DNA of 25,109 bases from a virus: the IMG/VR virus record IMGVR_UViG_3300017786_000128, positions 1 to 25,109 of that record; one strand, written 5' to 3'. The notes beneath the pieces are model-generated. The model worked only from the letters and a program-made list of their open reading frames with translations, did not search any database and was not told where the DNA came from. Positions 1,047 to 25,109 of this stretch are shown here, one piece after another (positions within the stretch are counted from its first letter, which is position 1; each line of letters opens with the position of its first letter). The translations under genes and the position numbers were made by a program.

Positions 1047-2278
1047 GTTTAGTTAGAAGTTTGATGGACAGAGCCTTTTATGAAGAGCATAGAGGTGCTA
1101 GATGCCCAGATAGATTATTCAGTAAAGATGTTCGAAAGATTAAGACATCTATCGACAAAGCGATGTACAACTACGAGAGAACCGTCACACCAGATGAGAT
1201 TGAAGCGTTGTTCATGGCTAACAATCCTACCTTAACAACTGCACAGAAAGGTGCATACGGAGATTTATTCAAGAGGATTAAGAAAGAAGATCCGTTGGGT
1301 AATGATGTAGCACAGGAAGTCTTATCAAAGTTATTCCAACAAGTTGTGGGCGAAGATATTGCCAATCTTGGTTTTGATTATGTAAATGGTTCGCAGACAA
1401 GCCTTGAGCCTTTGCGTAATATACTTGAGAGTTATGGCGATGACTTCACTCCCAACCTTAACATAGAGTGGGATGACATGGATGTAGACACTTTGCTACA
1501 GAAGAACGACATGGAAGCCAGATGGTCTTTCAATATATCGTCCCTTACTAGGGTCGTTGAGGGTGTCAATGATGGACACCTTATCGAAGTGGGTGCTAGA
1601 CCCAACACAGGTAAAACGTCTTTTCATGCGAGTTTGATTGCAGGAGTAAATGGTTTCGCAAGGCAGGGTGCTAAGTGTGTCGTGCTTTGCAATGAAGAGG
1701 GCAGTCACCGTGTGGGTCTACGCTACCTCACTTCAGCTACTGGTATGGACAAGTACCAGATAAAAGAGAACCCTAGTAAAGCAAAAGAGTTATATGCACC
1801 AATACAAAAAAATGTCAAGCTACGTGACGCTACTGGCAAAGATATGTCTTGGGTTGAGAGTGTATGCAAGTCTTATCAGCCAGACGTTGTTGTTCTTGAT
1901 ATGGGTGACAAGTTTGCTAAGACAGCAGGGTTTGCTAGGACGGATGAAGCATTGAAAGCTAATGCAGTTCATGCTCGTATGATAGCGAAACAGCATAAGT
2001 GTGCCATATTTTATATGTCACAGTTATCTGCCGAAGCAGAAGGTAAGGTTGTACTTAACCAAGCCATGATGGAAGGCAGTAGAACAGGTAAGGCAGCAGA
2101 AGCCGATTTGATGATTTTGATAGCAAAAGATGCACCTGTAAATAAGAAAGGTGGGGATGACGATGGTGGTGAAGAAAGCACGTTACGTCACATCAATGTT
2201 GTAAAGAATAAATTGTCTGGTTGGCATGGTCGCATTGTTTGTGATTTAGATTACAAAACAGCGAGGTACACAGCATGA
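1037..2278 (+). CDS. Replicative DNA helicase, DnaB-like RecA fold
   Basis: Ring helicase expected to unwind DNA at the phage fork together with the separately encoded primase. The Walker A motif is at residues 186-194 (GARPNTGKT), a catalytic acidic pair follows at 220-221 (LCNEE), Walker B is VVVLD ending at D288, and motif H3 is YMSQLS with Q329. The segment GSRTGKAAEAD (residues 348-358) matches the conserved region ahead of the DnaB arginine finger. The N-terminal ~150 residues are helical and unlike the T7 primase domain. Length (413 aa) fits a DnaB-type phage helicase. The start overlaps the primase frame by 10 bases and the stop overlaps the next ATG (ATGA). Confidence 0.9.
   Translation: MELSLVRSLMDRAFYEEHRGARCPDRLFSKDVRKIKTSIDKAMYNYERTVTPDEIEALFMANNPTLTTAQKGAYGDLFKRIKKEDPLGNDVAQEVLSKLFQQVVGEDIANLGFDYVNGSQTSLEPLRNILESYGDDFTPNLNIEWDDMDVDTLLQKNDMEARWSFNISSLTRVVEGVNDGHLIEVGARPNTGKTSFHASLIAGVNGFARQGAKCVVLCNEEGSHRVGLRYLTSATGMDKYQIKENPSKAKELYAPIQKNVKLRDATGKDMSWVESVCKSYQPDVVVLDMGDKFAKTAGFARTDEALKANAVHARMIAKQHKCAIFYMSQLSAEAEGKVVLNQAMMEGSRTGKAAEADLMILIAKDAPVNKKGGDDDGGEESTLRHINVVKNKLSGWHGRIVCDLDYKTARYTA
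2268..2277 (+). repeat. Junction repeat ACACAGCATG, copy 2 (helicase/115-aa gene)
   Basis: Second ACACAGCATG copy. GAGG at 2263-2266 is the ribosome-binding site for the ATG at 2275, and the same bases encode the helicase C-terminus RYTA. Confidence 0.8.
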
Positions 2279-2622
2279 TGAATTTAGGTATATATAAATT
2301 TACTAAAAAAGACTTGCCCAACTTAGAGTCTAAACTTACAATATCTAAATTTAAATCAGATCAATGTGAGGAAGAGAATTATTATAGAGCCTATTATAAT
2401 AATCCTTACAAGAGAGATATTCAAAGAATAGAAAAATTGATATCTTTGATACATGAAGATTTACAAATAGAAAGTTATAGAGATGGTCTTGTTTTATTAG
2501 ATAAAAAATTTGTTGTATCCTTGATAGATAATAACTGGAGAGTTTTAAATAAAAATACATGGTATAAGCACAAAGATATTAAACATTTTGTAAGCAACTA
2601 TATAAGAAAGGACACAGCATGA
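2275..2622 (+). CDS. Hypothetical protein, 115 aa
   Basis: I do not recognise a family. The protein is rich in Lys, Tyr, Asn and Asp, with no membrane segment, signal peptide or cysteine motif; the C-terminal part (WYKHKDIKHFVSNYIRK) is basic and aromatic, which would suit nucleic-acid contact, but that is a guess. It is translationally coupled on both sides: ATGA overlap with the helicase stop and with the next start. Together with the following gene it forms a visibly more AT-rich pair lodged between helicase and polymerase, which may mark a later insertion. A second in-frame ATG at 2278 could be used instead. Confidence 0.7.
   Translation: MMNLGIYKFTKKDLPNLESKLTISKFKSDQCEEENYYRAYYNNPYKRDIQRIEKLISLIHEDLQIESYRDGLVLLDKKFVVSLIDNNWRVLNKNTWYKHKDIKHFVSNYIRKDTA
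2612..2621 (+). repeat. Junction repeat ACACAGCATG, copy 3 (115-aa gene/GIY-YIG gene)
   Basis: Third ACACAGCATG copy, preceded by AAAGG. It supplies ribosome-binding site, stop (TGA) and start (ATG at 2619) for the gene pair; the upstream protein ends in KDTA. Confidence 0.8.
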
Positions 2623-3032
2623 TTACACAATTACTATCATTTCTCTTTGGAAACTTAGATGTTAAAGACATCAAAAGAAAAGAAGAACTAAAAGAGACAG
2701 CCTTAGAAATATCTAAGAACACATTACGGCAATACAATAAACAGAAAGATGGGTATGTGTATATTATATCTAACCCTGCGTGGGAAGGTTGGTATAAGGT
2801 TGGCATGGCTGTTGATTCTCAGGATAGATGTGGAAGTTATCAAACATCTAGTCCTCACAGAGATTATAGATTAGAATACAGCAAGTATTTTCTAAACAGA
2901 AAAGTGGCTGAAGAGATAGCACATGACGTAATAAGTGAGATTTCTCTTGACAGAAATGGAGAATGGTTTAGAGTAAGCGTTAATAAGATTCGAAAAATAA
3001 TCAAAGGAATAGATTATGAAATTAGTGCTTGA
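2619..3032 (+). CDS. GIY-YIG superfamily protein (T5orf172/MUG113-like nuclease domain)
   Basis: Residues 45-130 look like a T5orf172/MUG113 domain of the GIY-YIG nuclease superfamily: GYVYII (45-50) supplies the first tyrosine pair, GWYKVGMAVDSQDR (57-70) the second strand and helix with R70, and NGEWF (114-118) the metal-binding glutamate E115. The N-terminal 40 residues are a basic helical extension. Members of this superfamily cut DNA and include homing endonucleases, restriction enzymes and uncharacterised phage proteins; which role applies here is unknown. Its place between helicase and polymerase suggests either a replication/recombination function or a selfish free-standing nuclease. 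The end overlaps the polymerase start by 17 bases. Confidence 0.75.
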   Translation: MITQLLSFLFGNLDVKDIKRKEELKETALEISKNTLRQYNKQKDGYVYIISNPAWEGWYKVGMAVDSQDRCGSYQTSSPHRDYRLEYSKYFLNRKVAEEIAHDVISEISLDRNGEWFRVSVNKIRKIIKGIDYEISA

Positions 3033-5055
3033 TGTAGAGAATACTGTAACCAAACGGAACGATAGGCTACACTTAGATCCTTTTGAAACCAATAACTCCC
3101 TTGTCATGATTGGAATGAAGAGTGAGCTTGGTGAGCAGGTAATTACGTTTGACCACAGTGAAACAGAACCCACACCAGATGGGCAAAAGATTGTTCAAGA
3201 TATGCTTGATAAGGCTACAGTTCTTGTATGCCACAACGTATCTCACGATCTCCTCTGGTTGTGGGAGTCTGGTTTCAAGTATGACGGTATTGTTTTTGAC
3301 ACAATGTTGGGGGACTATGTTTTACAGCGAGGTCAAAAGAAACCGTCATCACTTGAGATGTGTGCAGAGAGGTATGGACTAGAAACAAAGAAGCAAGATA
3401 CATTAAAAGAATATTTCAAAAAAGGGTTCTCTGTTCGTGACATACCTCATGCCGAGTTATCGGAATATCTAGTGGCAGACTTACGTGCCACAGATGAATT
3501 ATCAGATAATATATTTGGTAGACTATATGGTAAAGACAGTGGGTTGATGAATACAGTTAGCCTTACAAATATGGTTGCTGTTTGCTTGTGTAAGATATAT
3601 AGGAACGGTTTTGCTGTTGACTATGTAGGATTAGAAGAAGTTAAACAAGAGTTTGAAAAAGAAAAGAGACAGCTTGTACAGGATTTAAATGTACAAGTTA
3701 GAGAACTTATGGGCGATGTTCCTATCAATCTAAACAGCCCAGAGCAACTATCGTGGGTGATATACAGCCGTAAGCCAAAAGATAAGAATGATTGGTCTAG
3801 CTGTTTTGATTATAAGATGGACTACAATGGTTTCAAAAGCAAAGTTCTGGAAAAAGCCGAGACTATATATAAGAAGAAAGCATTTAAGTGTGAAGCTTGT
3901 GATGGTAAAGGTGTAATACAAAAGATGCGAAAAGATGGTAAGCCATATGCCAGACCAACAAAATGTTCTACGTGTAATAATCTTGGGTTTATTTATAAGA
4001 ATGTAGCCAACGAAGTAGCTGGTCTAAAGCGACAGCCACCTAACTCACGTTGGGTTAGTCACAGTGGTTTCACGATAAACAAATCAAACGTAGAGATACT
4101 TGAGAACATGGCTAGACGAGAGGGTGATACTACAGCACAGAGTTTCTTAAAGAAGATACGTAGGTTGTCGGCAGTAGAAACATATCTCTCTAGCTTTGTA
4201 GAGGGCATTGCAGACCATGTTAAGAGAGATGGTAAGCTACACGTTAGATTATTACAGCACCGTACCTCTACAGGACGGTTCAGTGGTGCAGACCCTAATA
4301 TGCAGAACATGCCCAGAGGTGGTACGTTTCCTGTGAAGAAGGTTTTCATATCTCGTTGGAACGAAGGAAAGATACTTGAAGCTGACTTTGCACAGCTAGA
4401 GTTTAGAGTTGCAGCTTTTTTGTCGCAGGATAAAACAGCTATTCGTGAGATATGTAATGGTGTAGATGTTCATGCTTACACAGCAAAGGTTATATCGGAA
4501 GCAGGACAGCCTACAACAAGACAAGAAGCTAAAGCACATACCTTTGCACCTCTCTACGGTGCTACTGGTTATGGAAGGACAAAAGCTGAAGCTGAATACT
4601 ACGAGCAGTTTACCAAGAAGTATGACGGTATAGCTAACTGGCACAGTAATCTTGCCCAAGAAGCTATAGATACTTTGAGGATAAAAACACCATCTGGCAG
4701 AGAGTTTTCTTTTCCAGATGTTGAGAGAAAGGGTAATGGTAAAGTTACGTATGGGACACAGATTAAGAACTATCCTGTACAGAGTTTTGCTACTGCCGAC
4801 ATCGTTCCTTTGGTTCTAATACGAATAGAGGAAGCATTGCAAAAAATGCAAAGCTGTATTGTAAATTCTGTGCATGACTCTATCGTGATAGATATTCACC
4901 CAGACGAGCAAGACCAAGTTTTAAAGGTGATGAAAGATATTAACAAGAACTTAAAAAATATTGTTGATAACCATTTCAACATAGACTTTAATGTACCCTT
5001 GTTATTAGAATCAAAAATAGGAAATAATTGGCTTGACACTAAAGATGTCATGTGA
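3016..5055 (+). CDS. DNA polymerase, family A, with 3'-5' exonuclease and DnaJ-type zinc-finger insert
   Basis: Replicative polymerase of the phage. Exonuclease motifs: D6 and E8 (LDVEN), N74/D78 (HNVSHD), Y151/D155 (YLVAD). Between exonuclease and palm lies a zinc finger with C292, C295, C317 and C320, pattern CxxCxGxG…CxxCxxxG, like the DnaJ central domain; the same oddity is known in HMO-2011. Polymerase motifs: A is DFAQLEFR with D457; B runs from R502 through K506 and F510 to Y514; C is VHDS with catalytic D621. The residue matching E. coli Pol I Phe762 is Phe (F510). The residue after the motif C Asp, usually Glu, is Ser622. Length (679 aa) suits a T7-like polymerase lacking a 5' nuclease domain. 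The start lies inside the previous gene. Confidence 0.95.
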   Translation: MKLVLDVENTVTKRNDRLHLDPFETNNSLVMIGMKSELGEQVITFDHSETEPTPDGQKIVQDMLDKATVLVCHNVSHDLLWLWESGFKYDGIVFDTMLGDYVLQRGQKKPSSLEMCAERYGLETKKQDTLKEYFKKGFSVRDIPHAELSEYLVADLRATDELSDNIFGRLYGKDSGLMNTVSLTNMVAVCLCKIYRNGFAVDYVGLEEVKQEFEKEKRQLVQDLNVQVRELMGDVPINLNSPEQLSWVIYSRKPKDKNDWSSCFDYKMDYNGFKSKVLEKAETIYKKKAFKCEACDGKGVIQKMRKDGKPYARPTKCSTCNNLGFIYKNVANEVAGLKRQPPNSRWVSHSGFTINKSNVEILENMARREGDTTAQSFLKKIRRLSAVETYLSSFVEGIADHVKRDGKLHVRLLQHRTSTGRFSGADPNMQNMPRGGTFPVKKVFISRWNEGKILEADFAQLEFRVAAFLSQDKTAIREICNGVDVHAYTAKVISEAGQPTTRQEAKAHTFAPLYGATGYGRTKAEAEYYEQFTKKYDGIANWHSNLAQEAIDTLRIKTPSGREFSFPDVERKGNGKVTYGTQIKNYPVQSFATADIVPLVLIRIEEALQKMQSCIVNSVHDSIVIDIHPDEQDQVLKVMKDINKNLKNIVDNHFNIDFNVPLLLESKIGNNWLDTKDVM

Positions 5056-19556: not shown

Positions 19557-20663
19557 CTATAGTTCTGCATCTACTTCAATGCTAGTAGACCCTGTTGAGT
19601 AAAAGCCAGAAGGCTGTGCTGCAGTTAAGCCTGAGTAACTTGCTCCTTGAATCCTGCCGTTTGTTTTGTTTGCAGTTAGAAAAGAATTAGTTCCTGTTGA
19701 AGAAGGATAACCACCAGTTCCTACTAAAAAAGTTGCATTTCCACTACTTTGTCCTGCTGTGGGTAGAGTAACAGTTGGAGTGGCTCTTTTTTCAGCATAT
19801 TCAAAAGCAGCATGTGCAGAGGTTGTACTGTCTGAATAACCAATTCGCACAAAACCTGAATTTTCATAATCAAATTTTTCATAATATCTTTTTGATTTAA
19901 TTAGTGTAACGTCAAAAGGCTCTGACTCAAACTCTGTTGGGTTCTGCCCTACTTCTAACTGAACTCCTGTGATGAAGAATGTTCTGTCTGTGCTGTCAAA
20001 GAATGAGCTTCCCCCTGCAGCCCTATTAGCGTTTGTTACACTAGCAAAAGAAGATGAGTTTAACGTACCACCTGCAAAAGTAGAACCTGCATGAAGAAAA
20101 ATAATAAGCAGTAAACTTGAATTATTGTCATCATCAAAAGCACCTGTAGTATCAGCAGGAAATGTAAGTTCTACTCGTGTCCAATCTGTTGTTACATTAA
20201 ATGTTTTGGAACATTGTCTTGAGTTATCTTCATCAAACAACTCACACACATATGTGGCACTAGCATTACCCTTTACATAAAACGAAACAGCAAAGGGCTT
20301 TGCATCTGACGTTCCTTTTGCAAACGCTTGTAAATTTTGACCTTCTATTCTTTGTTCAATTTGTAGTCTTTCACCTGCTGCTATTGATGTATCTGCAGTA
20401 GTGCAAGCTAGTTTTAAACTATTAGCAAAACCACTAGGAGCAGAACTATCTTGTGTCATGGTAAATCGTCCTGCATTAGCACTATCAAGATTTAGATTGA
20501 ACCTGTCTATAGTGTAGTATCCATCAGTAGCACCCAATCCTGTGCTTGACGTTCCTCTCTGTGCCACATTCATCGCACCATTTATGATGACATTCCTGTT
20601 TACTCCACCACCACCTGCGTTGATGTTGCCTATTAGGTTTGCTAATTCTGCTGCTTTGCTCAT
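19557..20663 (-). CDS. Tail fibre / receptor-binding protein, 368 aa
   Basis: Likely distal tail component that contacts the host surface. After a short Gly-rich linker (NAGGGG) comes NRNVIINGAMNVAQRGTSS and TDGYYTIDRF, a signature repeated in many marine phage tail proteins, leading into a beta-rich domain of the carbohydrate-binding-module type (KPFAVSFYVKGNASATYVC, WTRVELTFPADTTG, TFFITGVQLEVGQNPTEFE). The C-terminal ~120 residues are a separate Ser/Thr/Gly-rich part, presumably variable. The start at 20663 is set by GGAG 7 bases upstream inside the preceding gene's GDLA codons and by the ATGA overlap. Binding target unknown. Confidence 0.78.
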   Translation of the reverse strand: MSKAAELANLIGNINAGGGGVNRNVIINGAMNVAQRGTSSTGLGATDGYYTIDRFNLNLDSANAGRFTMTQDSSAPSGFANSLKLACTTADTSIAAGERLQIEQRIEGQNLQAFAKGTSDAKPFAVSFYVKGNASATYVCELFDEDNSRQCSKTFNVTTDWTRVELTFPADTTGAFDDDNNSSLLLIIFLHAGSTFAGGTLNSSSFASVTNANRAAGGSSFFDSTDRTFFITGVQLEVGQNPTEFESEPFDVTLIKSKRYYEKFDYENSGFVRIGYSDSTTSAHAAFEYAEKRATPTVTLPTAGQSSGNATFLVGTGGYPSSTGTNSFLTANKTNGRIQGASYSGLTAAQPSGFYSTGSTSIEVDAEL

Positions 20664-21046
20664 GCTAAATCTCCGTGTGCTGCTTTTGAAACAATAGCTA
20701 CGTCTACTCCACTAGCACCTGTATTATAGACTTCTACACGAGTTGCTGAAGTTGTTACAGATTGTTGAATAAAATCAGCCCCTGCTCCACTTATATTAAC
20801 AGAGTAGTCGTTGTTTGCCATTGCATTAGTCAATGTTGAGCTATAGTCTCCTGTAGTATGGTCAGTTATACTAGCATAATTGAATGAATCTTGTATAGCA
20901 GCAGTGCTTGTTCCGTTAAATTGTAACCATCCTTTACACAATCCCTGTTGCAGATTAGTCGTGGTGCTATTCCCTTCGCCTGTCACAGCGATTGACCCTG
21001 CTGTGGTTACACCTGTTAATGTATTAATTTTTAGTGTTGATGCCAT
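20660..21046 (-). CDS. Small tail/fibre protein, GDLA-type paralogue 1, 128 aa
   Basis: Member of a five-gene paralogous set. It begins MASTLKINTLTG, then TAGSIAVTGEGNSTTTNLQQ, then GLCKGWLQFNGTS, DSFNYASITDHTTGDYS and TNAMANNDYSV, and ends HGDLA. Proteins of this pattern are frequent in marine phage tail clusters and are thought to be beta-structured fibre components. A longer frame begins at 21064, but its extra residues (MWRLSI) are just the out-of-frame reading of the upstream junction; the ATG at 21046 shares TAATG with the upstream stop and lines up with the paralogues. Its last codons carry the ribosome-binding site of the 368-aa fibre. Confidence 0.75.
   Translation of the reverse strand: MASTLKINTLTGVTTAGSIAVTGEGNSTTTNLQQGLCKGWLQFNGTSTAAIQDSFNYASITDHTTGDYSSTLTNAMANNDYSVNISGAGADFIQQSVTTSATRVEVYNTGASGVDVAIVSKAAHGDLA
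20661..20674 (-). repeat. GDLA junction cassette, copy 1
   Basis: Minus strand GGAGATTTAGCATG: codons for GDLA, TGA stop overlapping ATG, with GGAG 7 bases from the start of the 368-aa fibre gene. Confidence 0.85.
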
Positions 21047-21060
21047 TATGCTAAGTCTCC
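21044..21060 (-). repeat. GDLA junction cassette, copy 2
   Basis: Minus strand GGAGACTTAGCATAATG: codons for GDLA, TAA stop sharing one A with the ATG at 21046, GGAG 10 bases upstream of the start. Confidence 0.85.
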
Positions 21061-21525
21061 ACAAATTTGTACACCTGCTTCTTTTACATCCACAGCATTA
21101 GTGTTTGCCTGTTTTGCTACAAACCTAACTGAACCGACTAAAACTTGGTCATCGTTTTCTAAAAAGGTACGGTCAACTCCATGCGTGGTACACGAGTAGT
21201 CATCATTTGCCATGTCGTTAGTTATGCTAACTGTATAATCTCCTGTTCCTTCGTCAATTAAACCAGAGCAATTAAAACTATCAGAAAATGAGATACTACC
21301 TGCAGTCCCATCAAATTTGCACCAACACTTAGTTAATCCCTGCTGTACACTCGTAGTAGTTGTACCACCCTCTCCAACAATAGTGGTCTGTCCTGTGGAG
21401 TTCATGGTTAGCTTTGTAGCATTGGCTACCTTCAGCAATATCTGGTCATTAGTCGCAAGGTCAATACCTGTGTCATTATCTCCCCCTGCATTGACGATTG
21501 TATCTACTTTAATTTCACTTGCCAT
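21046..21525 (-). CDS. Small tail/fibre protein, GDLA-type paralogue 2, 159 aa
   Basis: Second member of the paralogous set, with an N-terminal insertion relative to the others: MASEIKVDTIVNAGGDNDTG and LATNDQILLKVANATKLTMN precede the shared TTTSVQQGLTKCWCKFDGT, DSFNCSGLIDEGTGDYTVS and TNDMANDDYSC; it ends CGDLA. The N-terminal part (VDTI…G..D…L) resembles the start of other marine phage fibre proteins, so this gene may be a fusion of two fibre modules. It contains several Cys, unlike its paralogues. Start and stop both lie in TAATG junctions. Confidence 0.73.
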   Translation of the reverse strand: MASEIKVDTIVNAGGDNDTGIDLATNDQILLKVANATKLTMNSTGQTTIVGEGGTTTTSVQQGLTKCWCKFDGTAGSISFSDSFNCSGLIDEGTGDYTVSITNDMANDDYSCTTHGVDRTFLENDDQVLVGSVRFVAKQANTNAVDVKEAGVQICGDLA

Positions 21526-21539
21526 TATGCTAAATCTCC
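21523..21539 (-). repeat. GDLA junction cassette, copy 3
   Basis: Minus strand GGAGATTTAGCATAATG, preceded by another GGA so that GGAGGAG is present. Same arrangement of GDLA codons, TAATG overlap and embedded ribosome-binding site. Confidence 0.85.
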
Positions 21540-21914
21540 TCCAAATGCTGCAGCCATTACAGTATCAGATAAACTATCTCCAGTGCTAAAAGAAAATTGT
21601 GAACAGGCTGTAGTTGTTAAGTCTTGAGGAGCAATCATTGTATACCCATAATTACCATCGTTAGGAATGGCTATGTAGCCATCATCAGATATGTATGGAT
21701 TAGCATGAGCGTAGTTAATTTTGCCTGTAGATGCGTCTGTTACACTACTCAAATTAAAAGTATCGCCAGAGGAATTATCTGACTGCTTAAATATAACACT
21801 AAAGCCCTTTATTAATCCCTTTTGAATAGATGTAGTAGTGCTACCCTCAGTAATATTCATACTACCCTTTGTTGTTCTTCCTTCTATATTATCTACTTGT
21901 AATTTTGATGTCAT
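21525..21914 (-). CDS. Small tail/fibre protein, GDLA-type paralogue 3 (divergent), 129 aa
   Basis: The most divergent member of the set: MTSKLQVDNIEGRTTKGSMN, TEGSTTTSIQKGLIKGFSVI, DTFNLSSVTDASTGKINYAH, ending FGGDLA. The shared positions (TTTS(V/I)QxGLxK and D(S/T)FN…TD..TG) show common descent with 20660-21046, 21046-21525, 24162-24578 and 24578-24994. It starts in an ATGA overlap with the preceding gene, which lacks the GDLA ending, so this junction has the weaker SD-like sequence ATGGA. Confidence 0.72.
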   Translation of the reverse strand: MTSKLQVDNIEGRTTKGSMNITEGSTTTSIQKGLIKGFSVIFKQSDNSSGDTFNLSSVTDASTGKINYAHANPYISDDGYIAIPNDGNYGYTMIAPQDLTTTACSQFSFSTGDSLSDTVMAAAFGGDLA

Positions 21915-22375
21915 AATATTGTATAAAATCCATTAACTGTTAGCGTTGCTGATGCACCGACTGTAATTGGTCCTGCTGATAGAGCATTGGTTGTACTACT
22001 GATTGTTACATCAGCACTGATTGTCTGACCATTGGTTCGTATGATGCTGTCGTTACCTAAGAAGGGATACCGTGTGTCAGACTCAGACTTGGTGTAGCTG
22101 TTGGCTATACTAAATGTGTCATACACAACTATCTCTACTACATCATTAGCTGATGCTCCTGTTACCAACACAACTGATGTACCTGATGTAGAGGTGTAGT
22201 CGGTTGCAGGTTTGAGTAAGATTCCATTCTGATACACATCAACGTACTCTGAGTCTGGATATGTCAATGTGAGTGAGTTAGCATCTGAACCACTGAAGGA
22301 TGTCTGCCCTGCTGTGGCTTGGTAGATGAACCTGTTACGGATACCTTGCTGTGGTGCTTTTCCTATGTATGGCAT
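21911..22375 (-). CDS. Tail fibre-like structural protein, 154 aa
   Basis: The N-terminus MPYIGKAPQQGIRNRFIYQA, then TAGQTSFSGSDANSLTLTY, VDVYQNGILLKPATDYTSTS and DVVEIVVYDTFS, is a pattern shared by many cyanophage and other marine phage tail-fibre proteins; it forms a beta-rich domain. The segment YTKSESDTRYP is like the short coiled or triple-helical connectors of trimeric fibres. The C-terminus is a small TI/SA repeat-like strand region (TISSTTNALSAGPITVGASA). AGGAG precedes the ATG. Likely a fibre shaft or tip subunit; partner unknown. Confidence 0.76.
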   Translation of the reverse strand: MPYIGKAPQQGIRNRFIYQATAGQTSFSGSDANSLTLTYPDSEYVDVYQNGILLKPATDYTSTSGTSVVLVTGASANDVVEIVVYDTFSIANSYTKSESDTRYPFLGNDSIIRTNGQTISADVTISSTTNALSAGPITVGASATLTVNGFYTIL

Positions 22376-22387
22376 TTAGTTATTCTC

Positions 22388-22621
22388 CTATGACGGCTTT
22401 GTTGGGAACTTAATTGAGAACATATCAACTGGTGCTGAAGTCGCAGTAATTACTTGATTGATAAAGTCTGAACTTGCTGTTGAAGGTAAATCCCTCAATG
22501 CTTGCCTATACGTTTTCCAATCAGCATCATTTGATAAAGTCACATCTCTGCTTTGTGTCCAGTCGCTTTCTGCTAAAAGTTTGTCTCTAGTTTCTCTTAA
22601 TTGTTTCATCGCTATTGACAT
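22388..22621 (-). CDS. Phage tail assembly chaperone-like protein, 77 aa
   Basis: The sequence KQLRETRDKLLAESDWTQSR followed by a variable segment and WKTYRQALRDLPS is the signature of the phage tail assembly chaperone family (Pfam Phage_tail_APC), commonly encoded right beside fibre genes. Such proteins are thought to help fibres fold or trimerise. It is short, containing the conserved domain plus a 25-residue tail. Its start shares TAATG with the stop of the 231-aa gene upstream. Confidence 0.8.
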   Translation of the reverse strand: MSIAMKQLRETRDKLLAESDWTQSRDVTLSNDADWKTYRQALRDLPSTASSDFINQVITATSAPVDMFSIKFPTKPS

Positions 22622-23316
22622 TATGCGTTCACCCTTAATCCAAATAGTGACATATACGTTCCTGCTAGTTCTCCAGTTTCACCCATAAAAGCAAAGCCAG
22701 TAAAGGTAGTATCTGCACTCCCATTATTGTAACGTCCAAAGGATTGTGACCTTATGTATGCACCAAGTGTTTCATTATAACCCACCAAATCACTCTTCAT
22801 CATTGGTCTGTGTTTAGACCCTCTGTCAGTATTTGTACCACTTATAACAGTGGCAATAACACCATACATATCAATTTCACCATACAAACCAGTATCTTGT
22901 GCAGTTCCATCTCCGTTGTCATTTAAATTTCTAAACAAACGCATTCTATCATCACTATTATCATTGTTACCGATGTATGAGCCTGTATTTACTGAAAGCT
23001 CTTGAGTATGCCATCTATAGTTTGCATCAGTTATTTCAGAACTACCATTCATCCATCGCATAGTTATATCATGTGCTCCACTTGTGTGAGCAGAACCATA
23101 GAAACCAATAACCAATTTGTACGTTATATAGTCCGTTGTGAAAACATCTTGGAAACGTATAGATGCAGCAGTAGAGCCACTTAATTCACTATCGGAGGTA
23201 CTTACCTTTGTTGTAATGTGTTCATATATACCTGCTCGTTTTGGTATGGTCAAAACATCACTAGAACTAATCGTAGCTCCACTCACTCCACTTCCAGTAA
23301 CTTTAGTTAAAGCCAT
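22621..23316 (-). CDS. Tail fibre / receptor-binding protein, 231 aa
   Basis: The N-terminus MALTKVTGSGVSGATISSSD is a common opening of marine phage fibre proteins. The rest is beta-rich, Gly/Ser/Asn-rich and free of Cys (YKLVIGFYGSAHTSGAHDIT, RLFRNLNDNGDGTAQDTGLY), consistent with a jelly-roll-like distal domain. It is followed directly by a tail-assembly chaperone-like gene, a usual fibre/chaperone order. Host-recognition role is inferred from position and composition. Confidence 0.68.
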   Translation of the reverse strand: MALTKVTGSGVSGATISSSDVLTIPKRAGIYEHITTKVSTSDSELSGSTAASIRFQDVFTTDYITYKLVIGFYGSAHTSGAHDITMRWMNGSSEITDANYRWHTQELSVNTGSYIGNNDNSDDRMRLFRNLNDNGDGTAQDTGLYGEIDMYGVIATVISGTNTDRGSKHRPMMKSDLVGYNETLGAYIRSQSFGRYNNGSADTTFTGFAFMGETGELAGTYMSLFGLRVNA

Positions 23317-23325
23317 CTATTTACC

Positions 23326-23700
23326 TCATGCGTATGGGCTTGTACCCAATGTGCTTGCATCCCAAGCAGCTTTTAGTTTAGCTATTGTGTCTGCATCATC
23401 TATAGCCTTTGCAGAAGGAGCATCTCTCAATGCTTTCTTCTTGTTTACAGATGCTGTTTTAGCAGATGCGTCATCAGCTTCAAGTGCCTTCATGTATGTT
23501 ACATCTTCAGCTTCAAGTAAAGGCTTTCGCACTTCCCTGATTTTATCCTTGAAGATAACTTTAGCAGCAGTCATGTCTTCAGCCATAACACTACCATTTA
23601 GTTTCCAAGCATTTCTGAAATGCCTGTCGGAAGGTATAGTTGCTGTTGAAGCATCTATTGTTGCACCATCCTTGTCGGTTACAAAAGTCTTAGTTGCCAT
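23326..23700 (-). CDS. Tail assembly-like protein, 124 aa
   Basis: Ala/Lys/Asp-rich helical protein. DRHFRNAWKLNGSV near residue 25-38 and the helix AKVIFKDKIREVRKPLLEAE are features of small proteins encoded among fibre genes of marine phages, probably assembly factors; the latter half (ALRDAPSAKAIDDADTIAKL) has the ALRD(A/L)PS element also seen as ALRDLPS in the chaperone-like gene at 22388-22621. It has the strongest ribosome-binding site of the cluster (AGGAGG about 8 bases from ATG), so it may be highly expressed. Confidence 0.65.
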   Translation of the reverse strand: MATKTFVTDKDGATIDASTATIPSDRHFRNAWKLNGSVMAEDMTAAKVIFKDKIREVRKPLLEAEDVTYMKALEADDASAKTASVNKKKALRDAPSAKAIDDADTIAKLKAAWDASTLGTSPYA

Positions 23701-23715
23701 GTTAGTTCCTCCTAT

Positions 23716-24165
23716 TTAAGCAGCTATTTTCCAAGCATTTCGCCATGTTCGTTGTTGTGGCAGTTGCTCTTTCTTACATATGACAAGTCTTGGTCGGTTT
23801 GACTTCTCATAATCTCTCCATACCCTTTCAGGTATATCTTTCTGTATTAGATACTCTATTGCTTCTTCTTCTGTCATAGCCTTCACAGGCTCAGTGTTAT
23901 GCAACAAGTATCCTCTTGTATGCTTTACAAAGTCTGGTTGTGCTTCGTCCTTCTTGAGTTCCCAATACACCCACACAGGTGGTAGTATGCCACCATTCAA
24001 TGCACACGCCATCCAGTTAGGGTCAGGGTGCGTTATCTTTGCAGGTTCATCTAGGTTGTCAGGGTCTTCCCACACAATGCAGAACTCACTTCTGTATGGC
24101 TCTAGGTTTTGCTTTGCCCATCCTAGTCTATCCCATAAATGTGTTCCTTGAAATTCTGGTGTCAT
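23716..24165 (-). CDS. Fibre-cluster protein, probable assembly factor, 149 aa
   Basis: Soluble, Trp- and Pro-rich protein starting TPEFQGTHLWDRLGWAKQNL and containing WVYWELKKDEAQPDFVKHTR. The C-terminal end QRTWRNAWKIAA resembles the N-terminal HFRNAWKLNG of the following gene product, so the two may share a binding motif or derive from one ancestral protein. I do not recognise a named family. Its start is set by a GDLA junction cassette (GGAG 7 bases upstream, ATGA overlap). Confidence 0.62.
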   Translation of the reverse strand: MTPEFQGTHLWDRLGWAKQNLEPYRSEFCIVWEDPDNLDEPAKITHPDPNWMACALNGGILPPVWVYWELKKDEAQPDFVKHTRGYLLHNTEPVKAMTEEEAIEYLIQKDIPERVWRDYEKSNRPRLVICKKEQLPQQRTWRNAWKIAA

Positions 24166-24578
24166 GCTAAATCTCCGTGTATTGCTAAAGATATCTCTCC
24201 GGGGTCTTGATTGCTTCCATCTCCTGTTTTAAAAGAAGATATATTACATAGTGCCGTTGTTTTTAAAGAATCACTTTCAGCGTAAAAAGAAACAATGGCT
24301 GTAGTTGCAAATAAACTTTTTTGCCCTATTGTTATGCCATAATTAGTATTACTCAATGCGTTTGTGTAGTTAGGTTTATAATCACCAGTTCCACCATCTG
24401 TTAAACTAGCCGTATTAAAACTATCATTTATTGTTGCATCAGGAGCATCATACTGACACCAAACTTTCACTAATCCTTGTTGCACACTCGTAGTGGTAAT
24501 ATTCCCTGCACCTGCAACAATAGTGATGCTGTTCTTTGCGTCTACTCCCTCTAGGGCATTTGTTCTTAGTGTGGACAT
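24162..24578 (-). CDS. Small tail/fibre protein, GDLA-type paralogue 4, 138 aa
   Basis: Begins MSTLRTNALEGVDAKNSI, then TTTSVQQGLVKVWCQYD, DSFNTASLTDGGTGDYKPNY and TNALSNTNYGI, and ends AIHGDLA. It aligns over its whole length with the next upstream gene (24578-24994) and with 20660-21046. Predicted beta-rich fibre subunit. Start in a TAATG overlap, stop in an ATGA overlap, both within GDLA cassettes. Confidence 0.75.
   Translation of the reverse strand: MSTLRTNALEGVDAKNSITIVAGAGNITTTSVQQGLVKVWCQYDAPDATINDSFNTASLTDGGTGDYKPNYTNALSNTNYGITIGQKSLFATTAIVSFYAESDSLKTTALCNISSFKTGDGSNQDPGEISLAIHGDLA
24163..24176 (-). repeat. GDLA junction cassette, copy 4
   Basis: Minus strand GGAGATTTAGCATG, identical over 14 bases to copy 1, linking paralogue 4 to the 149-aa gene; GGAG is 7 bases from the ATG. 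Confidence 0.85.
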
Positions 24579-24592
24579 TATGCTAAGTCTCC
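24576..24592 (-). repeat. GDLA junction cassette, copy 5
   Basis: Minus strand GGAGACTTAGCATAATG, identical to copies 2 and 6; joins paralogue 5 to paralogue 4 by TAATG. Confidence 0.85.
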
Positions 24593-24994
24593 GTGTATTG
24601 CACTATAGTGAACTTTATCAGCTTGAGCAAAATTGTCAGTGCCTTGACCTGTAAGCCCAATCTGTAGTCTATAAGAACCTGTTGCAGTAACATCATCTGA
24701 TGGATTGCAAGATATAACTGGGTCATTTGCTACGGCATTTGAAGCTGTTCCAAGAATTGAATAATTAGCATTAGCCATATCATTAGTAATAGCGTAGGAA
24801 TAATCACCAGTGCCATTATCTGTGCCTGATGCAATATTAAAGTTATCAGTCAAACTAGCATCAGTTCCTCCAAAAACCCAAGCTTTCGCCAACCCCTGCT
24901 GTAAGTTGGTAGTTGTAGAGTTACCCTCTCCTGTGACGGCAATAGACCCTGCTGTTGATGTGCCTGTGAGTGTGTTTGTTTTGAGTGTTGCCAT
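24578..24994 (-). CDS. Small tail/fibre protein, GDLA-type paralogue 5, 138 aa
   Basis: Begins MATLKTNTLTGTSTAGSI, continuing AVTGEGNSTTTNLQQGLAKA, nearly the same as the protein at 20660-21046 (TLKINTLTGVTTAGSI…) over the first 40 residues, then DNFNIASGTDNGTGDYSYA and TNDMANANYSI, ending AIHGDLA. The two N-termini are also similar in DNA, so one is probably a copy of the other, now separated by 3 kb of other fibre genes. The C-terminal halves differ strongly. Confidence 0.75.
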   Translation of the reverse strand: MATLKTNTLTGTSTAGSIAVTGEGNSTTTNLQQGLAKAWVFGGTDASLTDNFNIASGTDNGTGDYSYAITNDMANANYSILGTASNAVANDPVISCNPSDDVTATGSYRLQIGLTGQGTDNFAQADKVHYSAIHGDLA

Positions 24995-25008
24995 TATGCT
25001 AAGTCTCC
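24992..25008 (-). repeat. GDLA junction cassette, copy 6
   Basis: Minus strand GGAGACTTAGCATAATG, here at the end of a protein unrelated to the five paralogues, joining it to paralogue 5. Confidence 0.85.
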
Positions 25009-25109
25009 AAATGTTTGAGACATTTTTCCTATGTCTAAGTATCCTGAACCAGTGTATGTATCGTGGTCATACTGACCAGTTGCAATGTCATCACACCATG
25101 ATTGATTTA
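24994..25109 (-). CDS. Tail/structural protein, C-terminal fragment cut by the window edge
   Basis: The frame is open from the right edge to a TAA at 24994 and encodes the last 37 or so residues: SWCDDIATGQYDHDTYTGSG, then YLDIGKMSQTFGDLA. It is not similar to the small paralogues except for the last four residues, GDLA. Composition (Asp, Tyr, Gly, Thr) suits a fibre or tail protein with a beta-rich end. No more can be said without the missing N-terminal part. Confidence 0.7.
   Translation of the reverse strand, partial: NQSWCDDIATGQYDHDTYTGSGYLDIGKMSQTFGDLA

Follow-up and report, generated by a model that had tools for sequence, protein, structure and literature searches.

In the window of 25,109 bases analyzed here (the whole stretch of the IMG/VR virus record IMGVR_UViG_3300017786_000128), the small tail-fibre genes very probably make up an array whose slots accept exchangeable fibre-tip domains, and in which a short seam at the end of each gene closes the protein fold and couples translation to the next gene. 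Each slot gene would keep its own N-terminal part (about 24–65 amino acids (aa), probably used for attachment) and its position in the operon, and the C-terminal beta-sandwich of ~100 aa would be replaced as a unit from a large shared pool that includes the domains of other slots. In the seam, GGA-GAY would encode the final strand's last glycine together with one further residue, and would also act as the Shine–Dalgarno sequence (SD) of the next gene, followed by a TAATG or ATGA overlap of stop and start codon. Since an incoming domain itself ends in GDLA, the fold would be closed and the next gene would still be translated. Sequence comparison demonstrated the boundaries of the module, its replacement and movement between slots, the conservation of the slots and the dual constraint on the seam.

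The window is from a virus of the HMO-2011 type, a highly abundant group of marine bacteriophages. Its structural genes share 69–70% DNA identity over parts with HMO-2011 and the Roseobacter phages CRP-1, CRP-2 and CRP-345, an endonuclease I (PF05367) is encoded, and the array follows the order of HMO-2011, the genome of which contains five GDLA genes. HMO-2011-type phages are treated in PMC9038755, PMC8528129 and PMC6918029.

Six Seams and the Fibre Family

An earlier note on this DNA, made from the sequence alone, had listed six GDLA junctions with a common pattern. All six were found on the minus strand between 25,107 and 20,659, and the array genes of the window lie on this single strand in the same direction. 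With at most 3 mismatches allowed, the junction pattern matched six times in the window, while 100 dinucleotide shuffles gave a mean of 0.46 matches and never six. The seam codons GGA GAY TTA GCA are present in 6/6 cases, with GGAG placed 7 or 10 nucleotides (nt) upstream of the next ATG; the overlap is TAATG at four seams and ATGA at two. It was thereby confirmed that GGA-GAY encodes the SD of the following gene and that stop and start overlap. Five of the GDLA genes match the tail-fibre profile phrog_11355 (E 1e-15 to 1.5e-4) and are paralogous, as had been stated. The sixth had been called unrelated, but only 37 aa of it lie in the window, all belonging to the hypervariable part. In relatives, the MATLKTN gene is directly preceded by a member of the family starting with MSNLLVQ (11 of 11 MSNLL genes lead to MATLK), which leaves the description of the sixth gene as unrelated without support.

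For comparison, 80 viral contigs encoding relatives were combined with viral contigs scanned for the seam alone, giving 272 loci in total; nearly all of the data are assembled contigs, most of them from metagenomes. Using a profile of the conserved core, 726 distinct family members were collected. GDLA is the C-terminus of 684 of these, and nearly all others end in close variants (GELA 13, GSLA 4, GNLA 3, GVLA 3 and others). Alignment of 304 complete GDLA genes revealed a slot-specific N-terminal part, a QQGLAKxW box, the conserved core DSFNxSSxTDxGTG, a hypervariable stretch of ~70 aa with an entropy of 3.5–4 bits per column, and GDLA; the K and the D are nearly invariant. The earlier description of the seam as a travelling TETRAPEPTIDE across unrelated genes was not upheld: 685 seams belong to the fibre family and 8 to other genes, besides 17 in genes cut by contig ends.

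Five of the eight other-gene seams belong to a second, unrelated fibre family (...YSAATIVCTGTNTFTLIGDLA), which occurs in tandem and likewise has GDLA at its C-terminus, with an ATG that overlaps or adjoins this end (L118:3264 and 3934; L181:4621 and 5291; L194:5659). This second family possibly converged on the same joint.

The order of the array recurs among the contigs: three slots, the TPEFQG protein, a few other genes, the PYIGK protein, three slots and the MSKAAEL fibre. The window, with (cut A1)-MATLKTN-MSTLRTN-TPEFQG...PYIGK-MTSKLQV-MASEIKV-MASTLKI-MSKAAEL, fits this order. A partial rearrangement was seen in L029 (6563–10773), with B-type slots ahead of the TPEF gene. A scan of bacterial genomes with the downstream fibre yielded two weak relatives.

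Replacement of a Single Domain between Two Borders

The exchanged unit is one domain of ~100 aa that extends from the K of QQGLAKxW through GDLA. The exchange has a second joint at this K, which the earlier note had missed. Among 4048 pairs of genes with N-terminal parts at least 85% identical, the modules had a median identity of 22%; only 0.5% of the pairs reached at least 50% identity and 0.4% at least 80%. Single-linkage clusters of slots are crude, and the conclusions rest instead on the nucleotide identity of slot and next gene. In 432 pairs selected in this way (slot at least 90% and next gene at least 85% nt identity), the median global identity of the modules was 0.57, as compared to 0.56 ± 0.03 for random modules. 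Module lengths differ even in pairs with 96–100% identical flanks.

Modules were also found to move between slots. A module was shared (at least 75% nt identity) in 78 pairs, 53 of which differ in both the slot and the next gene. For example, the module of slot B3 in the window and that of an MSNLLVQ slot in the contig behind L113 and L019 are 98% identical in aa and 96.7% in nt. Both borders could be located for 47 of the 53 moved modules. At the K codon, identity increases from ~0.5 to 0.9, and directly past the stop codon it drops from ~0.9 to ~0.28. The middle base of the stop codon agreed in only 0.34 of the moved-module pairs, so that the stop and the type of overlap belong to the next gene of the recipient. 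Consistent borders were obtained from the flanks. In 1113 junction pairs with the same next gene, identity stayed at the chance level of 0.31 until the last base ahead of GGA, reached 1.00 on GGA and was ~0.9 within the following gene; in 1410 same-slot pairs, identity was lost at the same K codon.

A breakpoint map, which was not conditioned on modules, was built from 55 near-identical contig pairs with 241 internal ends. A distance of at most 20 nt from the seam was found for 37% of the internal similarity restarts (random 1.7%), and the same distance from K for 23% of the similarity ends (random 2.3%). One of the 241 breakpoints was well inside a module. Many further breaks lay in other parts of the contigs, in keeping with the mosaic nature of phage genomes. 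The map corresponds to the check suggested in the earlier note, namely whether gene content changes precisely at the seam. The note's idea of a modular joint holds in that content does change there and that the SD and the overlap are real; however, whole genes are not swapped, since slot order, N-terminal parts and downstream partners mostly stay the same and only the C-terminal domain is mobile.

The pattern is also present in isolates. Between Mel-JY33 and Nsp-JY18, the upstream DNA is 98% identical and the slots are 72–87% identical in nt, whereas the modules show only 54–58%, i.e., the random level. A module of HMO-2011 is 73% identical in aa to a module in another slot of L062. Only one case was found of two slots of one contig with a common module (L035:447 and L035:4279, 82% aa identity), which is perhaps a recent copy within one genome.

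Placement of the Borders

The modules are probably exchanged between phages that infect the same cell, through short-homology or illegitimate recombination, and selection would retain those joints that are in frame and coupled. The median longest exact run was 5 nt at the 5' joint between slots, 8 nt at the seam and 2 nt inside modules. Since there is little homology at K, short-homology or illegitimate recombination combined with selection for fold and coupling is favoured. The seam itself may provide homology for the crossover, or it may only be the joint that is kept by selection.

The latter would apply if crossovers fell anywhere and only those joints at domain ends survived that keep the fold and the coupling. 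This explanation differs from the array reading given above only in what places the breakpoints, and it is a serious candidate, although we lean slightly against it. It accounts for a 5' border that lies at the domain edge with little nt identity and for borders that coincide with the modelled domain. On the other hand, 8–14 exact bases are shared at the seam, and the third base of the seam Leu codon tracks the next gene (0.68 vs. 0.47), though most modules are unrelated. Since the wobble bases of the seam follow the next gene, crossovers often occur within or just before the seam.

A more specific version of the exchangeable-slot array is a dedicated domain-exchange architecture, with several receptor-binding slots per virion, a shared pool, and a seam kept as both crossover site and coupler. 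This version can be put forward only tentatively. If it were true, any member of the pool would fit any slot without breaking the operon, and one phage lineage could present a combinatorial set of adhesins. The pool of tip domains was estimated at no fewer than about 1,800–3,200 kinds (Chao1, 50–70% identity).

Double Coding of the Seam

At the seam, glycine is encoded by GGA in 697 of 722 cases, by GGG in 23, by GGT in 2 and by GGC in none, while glycine codons inside the same genes are 27% GGA, 42% GGT and 20% GGC. Stop and start overlap as TAATG, ATGA or TGATG at 708 of 722 junctions, and the SD core is placed 6–10 nt ahead of the ATG at 706 of 718. The sequence features of translational coupling, i.e., an overlapping stop and start together with an internal SD, are thus present, and the coupling is expected to operate in vivo.

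These figures could be explained if GDLA were conserved only as a ribosome-binding site and the peptide had no role. Further variants likewise point to constraint at the RNA level. The four GSLA variants all have GGG-AGY and thereby regain GGGAG. In L008, where the glycine is lost (SDLA), a new SD, AGGAGAT, follows the stop, and AGGAGG is present at this position in L156 and L134. Gene c of Nostoc phage Nsp-JY18 (GGGGAGACAAACGCATGA) retains GGAGAC..GCATGA in a different frame, so that the SD is out of frame, and in Vibrio phage 1.052 (GGAGGCAATTCATGA) the SD is kept with other residues. However, the peptide appears to be maintained as well. The seam Leu codon shows 428 synonymous alternatives as compared to 10 nonsynonymous ones, GAA occurs in only 16 of 726 cases although it would keep the SD, and virus SI2 (GGCGATCTCGCATGA) retains the GDLA peptide with GGC and without an SD. 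A role as ribosome-binding site alone is therefore improbable; judged from codon usage, the seam is under both RNA-level and protein-level constraint.

In relatives that lack an array, the C-terminus is ...VFG, VFR or VIR instead of GDLA. This suggests that the last strand ends with the G and that DLA was added in the arrays. As a separate observation, the seam Leu codon is CTC in 213 of 716 cases, as compared to 6% in the genes, and GAC is favoured over GAT; the SD offers no explanation for this.

Fold and Likely Role of the Module

The structure of the slot A3 protein was modelled with AlphaFold2 (105 rows) at a predicted local distance difference test (pLDDT) score of 81.6. Since the predicted strands span residues 37–134, the exchange unit from K38 to GDLA would correspond to one beta-sandwich. 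The nearest solved structures (VIA-align) were the C-terminus of the phiAB6 tailspike (Z 8.8), the Pam1 tailspike (Z 7.8) and the AP22 gp53 fibre (Z 6.8), followed by the H-type lectin Helix pomatia agglutinin (Z 5.7) and pyocin fibres (Z 5.2–5.3). Many predicted phage fibre proteins also match the model. A sequence search of the PDB with the family profile gave no hit, and Foldseek found no significant match in the PDB (E > 0.1).

Fold, annotation and hypervariability together suggest that the module tips bind receptors. These may be host surface glycans or proteins, and the array would hence set the host range. The array is a concrete, countable unit of host-recognition diversification with fixed slots, one exchangeable domain and two exact borders. 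As the exchanged domain ends in residues whose codons also form the next ribosome-binding site, the overlapping-gene joint would maintain translation of the operon even when domains are replaced again and again. With these borders, tip repertoires become searchable in any virome, and questions of host range become testable domain by domain.

Weighing of Exchange against Other Explanations

Several points count against the array of exchangeable domains. Close module pairs (90% identity or more) lie in the same slot more often than expected (64%, as compared to 18% by chance), so descent in place happens too. Most modules are without a close relative in the sample, a donor is not assignable for most slots, and no swap was seen happening over time. 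Most of the data are metagenome contigs. The low nt identity at the 5' joint argues against classical homologous recombination at this site. In addition, the fold matches are moderate (all Z < 9) and without ligand.

If the module instead diverged very fast in place under diversifying selection, without any exchange, same-slot pairs with unrelated modules would look just as observed. Diversifying selection is expected on receptor-binding tips. Nevertheless, such divergence is very unlikely to be the explanation: the 53 moved module pairs are 75–98% identical in different slots before different next genes, intermediates are almost absent among the 4048 pairs, and module lengths differ between nearly identical flanks.

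A dedicated recombination system would fit the precise borders on both sides and the C-terminus of a tyrosine integrase (PF00589) that is found at positions 1–270, the left edge of the window. Such a system might be a shufflon or serine invertase, a tyrosine recombinase acting at the seam, integron-like capture or a diversity-generating retroelement. It is less likely still, as whole domains with indels change rather than single bases, and the array genes all have the same direction. A search for serine recombinases in 15 related records was negative, and a shufflon or invertible switch was rejected on this basis and on the single strand of the window genes. A diversity-generating retroelement was likewise discarded, with reverse transcriptase (PF00078) absent from the 15 records, some of which are possibly incomplete. 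An integron-like array was rejected with an integrase in only 6 of 15 array-bearing records, some again possibly incomplete. Subgroups IV–X are described as being without identifiable lysogeny-related genes in PMC9038755, which counts against a dedicated recombinase.

Chimeric metagenome assembly, for which conserved slot parts might mislead assemblers within a sample and to which nearly all of the data would be open, is the least likely explanation of the mosaics, since the moved modules have diverged by 2–25%, the joints between slots mostly share ~5–14 exact bases, which is below the usual assembly words, and three isolates show the same pattern.

Comparison with Known Systems

In the modular theory of Susskind and Botstein, lambdoid phages are said to carry boundary or linker sequences at gene boundaries where the content changes. 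Like these, the seam is short, conserved and located at a gene border with changing content. It differs in being coding on one side and regulatory on the other, in occurring up to six times per operon and in having a second border within the gene. In a shufflon, one constant part is combined with many C-terminal versions. The array shares this feature, but no inversion and no recombinase were found, and the alternatives are not stored side by side. Exchange of C-terminal cassettes is known from polymorphic toxins (PMC3482391). These are similar in that a constant N-terminal part is followed, after a fixed motif, by an exchangeable C-terminal domain. In contrast to them, the array genes are not toxins, have no immunity gene, and their 3' joint would couple translation to the next slot.

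Host-recognition metaviromic islands of marine phages are under-recruiting and contain tail fibre and C1q genes (PMC3909814). The mosaic tail fibres of these islands resemble the array with their conserved N-terminus and hypervariable C-terminal receptor-binding end (PMC3909814). However, they consist of one or two longer fibre genes, whereas the array has about six small genes in two conserved runs, exactly one domain is exchanged, and its end doubles as the ribosome-binding site of the next gene. Cultured CRP phages were considered as array controls and rejected, since according to their annotation they carry one or two long fibre genes in place of an array. The array, the GDLA seam and the module exchange are not described in the available parts of the three papers on HMO-2011-type phages cited above. 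No description of the array or the seam was found in the open-access literature. Variable C-terminal tips and host-recognition islands are already known (PMC3909814); the multi-slot, single-domain exchange array with its double-coded joint is provisionally regarded as new.

Layout of the Array in the Window

All features of the array are on the minus strand. The C-terminal fragment of the sixth GDLA gene (37 aa; 24,997–25,107), which is cut by the window edge, occupies slot A1 (MSNLLVQ in relatives). It is joined by seam 1 (GGAGACTTAGCATAATG; 24,992–25,008), comprising GDLA, the stop codon, and the SD and ATG of the next gene, to the slot A2 fibre gene MATLKTNT... (138 aa; 24,578–24,994), whose exchangeable module extends from K37 to GDLA (24,581–24,886). 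Seam 2 (GGAGACTTAGCATAATG; 24,576–24,592) leads to the slot A3 fibre gene MSTLRTNALEG... (138 aa; 24,162–24,578), the product of which was modelled above; its module, predicted as one beta-sandwich domain, extends from K38 to GDLA (24,165–24,467). Seam 3 (GGAGATTTAGCATGAC; 24,161–24,176) has an ATGA overlap and is followed by the 149-aa TPEFQG protein (TPEFQGTHLWDRL...; 23,716–24,165), which is the constant partner after slot A3 and keeps this place in related contigs and in isolates. The protein also occurs, at 48–70% identity, in records of HMO-2011, of Microcystis and Nostoc, and of 'Dunaliella viridis virus SI2'.

The second run is preceded by the 154-aa MPYIGK protein (21,911–22,375), which has no GDLA. 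Slot B1 holds the fibre gene MTSKLQVDN... (129 aa; 21,525–21,914; module 21,528–21,809) and is linked by seam 4 (GGAGATTTAGCATAATG; 21,523–21,539) to the slot B2 gene MASEIKVDT... (159 aa; 21,046–21,525; module 21,049–21,330). After seam 5 (GGAGACTTAGCATAATG; 21,044–21,060) follows the slot B3 gene MASTLKINT... (20,660–21,046; module 20,663–20,935). Its start is more likely the ATG at 21,046, which overlaps the upstream stop, than the listed TTG at 21,064. Seam 6 (GGAGATTTAGCATGAG; 20,659–20,674), with an ATGA overlap, joins it to the 368-aa MSKAAELA fibre (phrog_4492; 19,557–20,663), the conserved partner downstream of slot B3.

The T7-type endonuclease I (PF05367) of the window was also present in 7 of 15 related records; that it is tied to module exchange is only a guess. 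In the related contig G006 (C1:15999-16382), the endonuclease I gene contains an in-frame TGA. The phage tail cluster was also found in L288 (HQ332136.1), the 'Dunaliella viridis virus SI2' record, for which a green alga is given as host. Since its taxonomy line reads Caudoviricetes, the virus probably infects a bacterium that was present in the culture.

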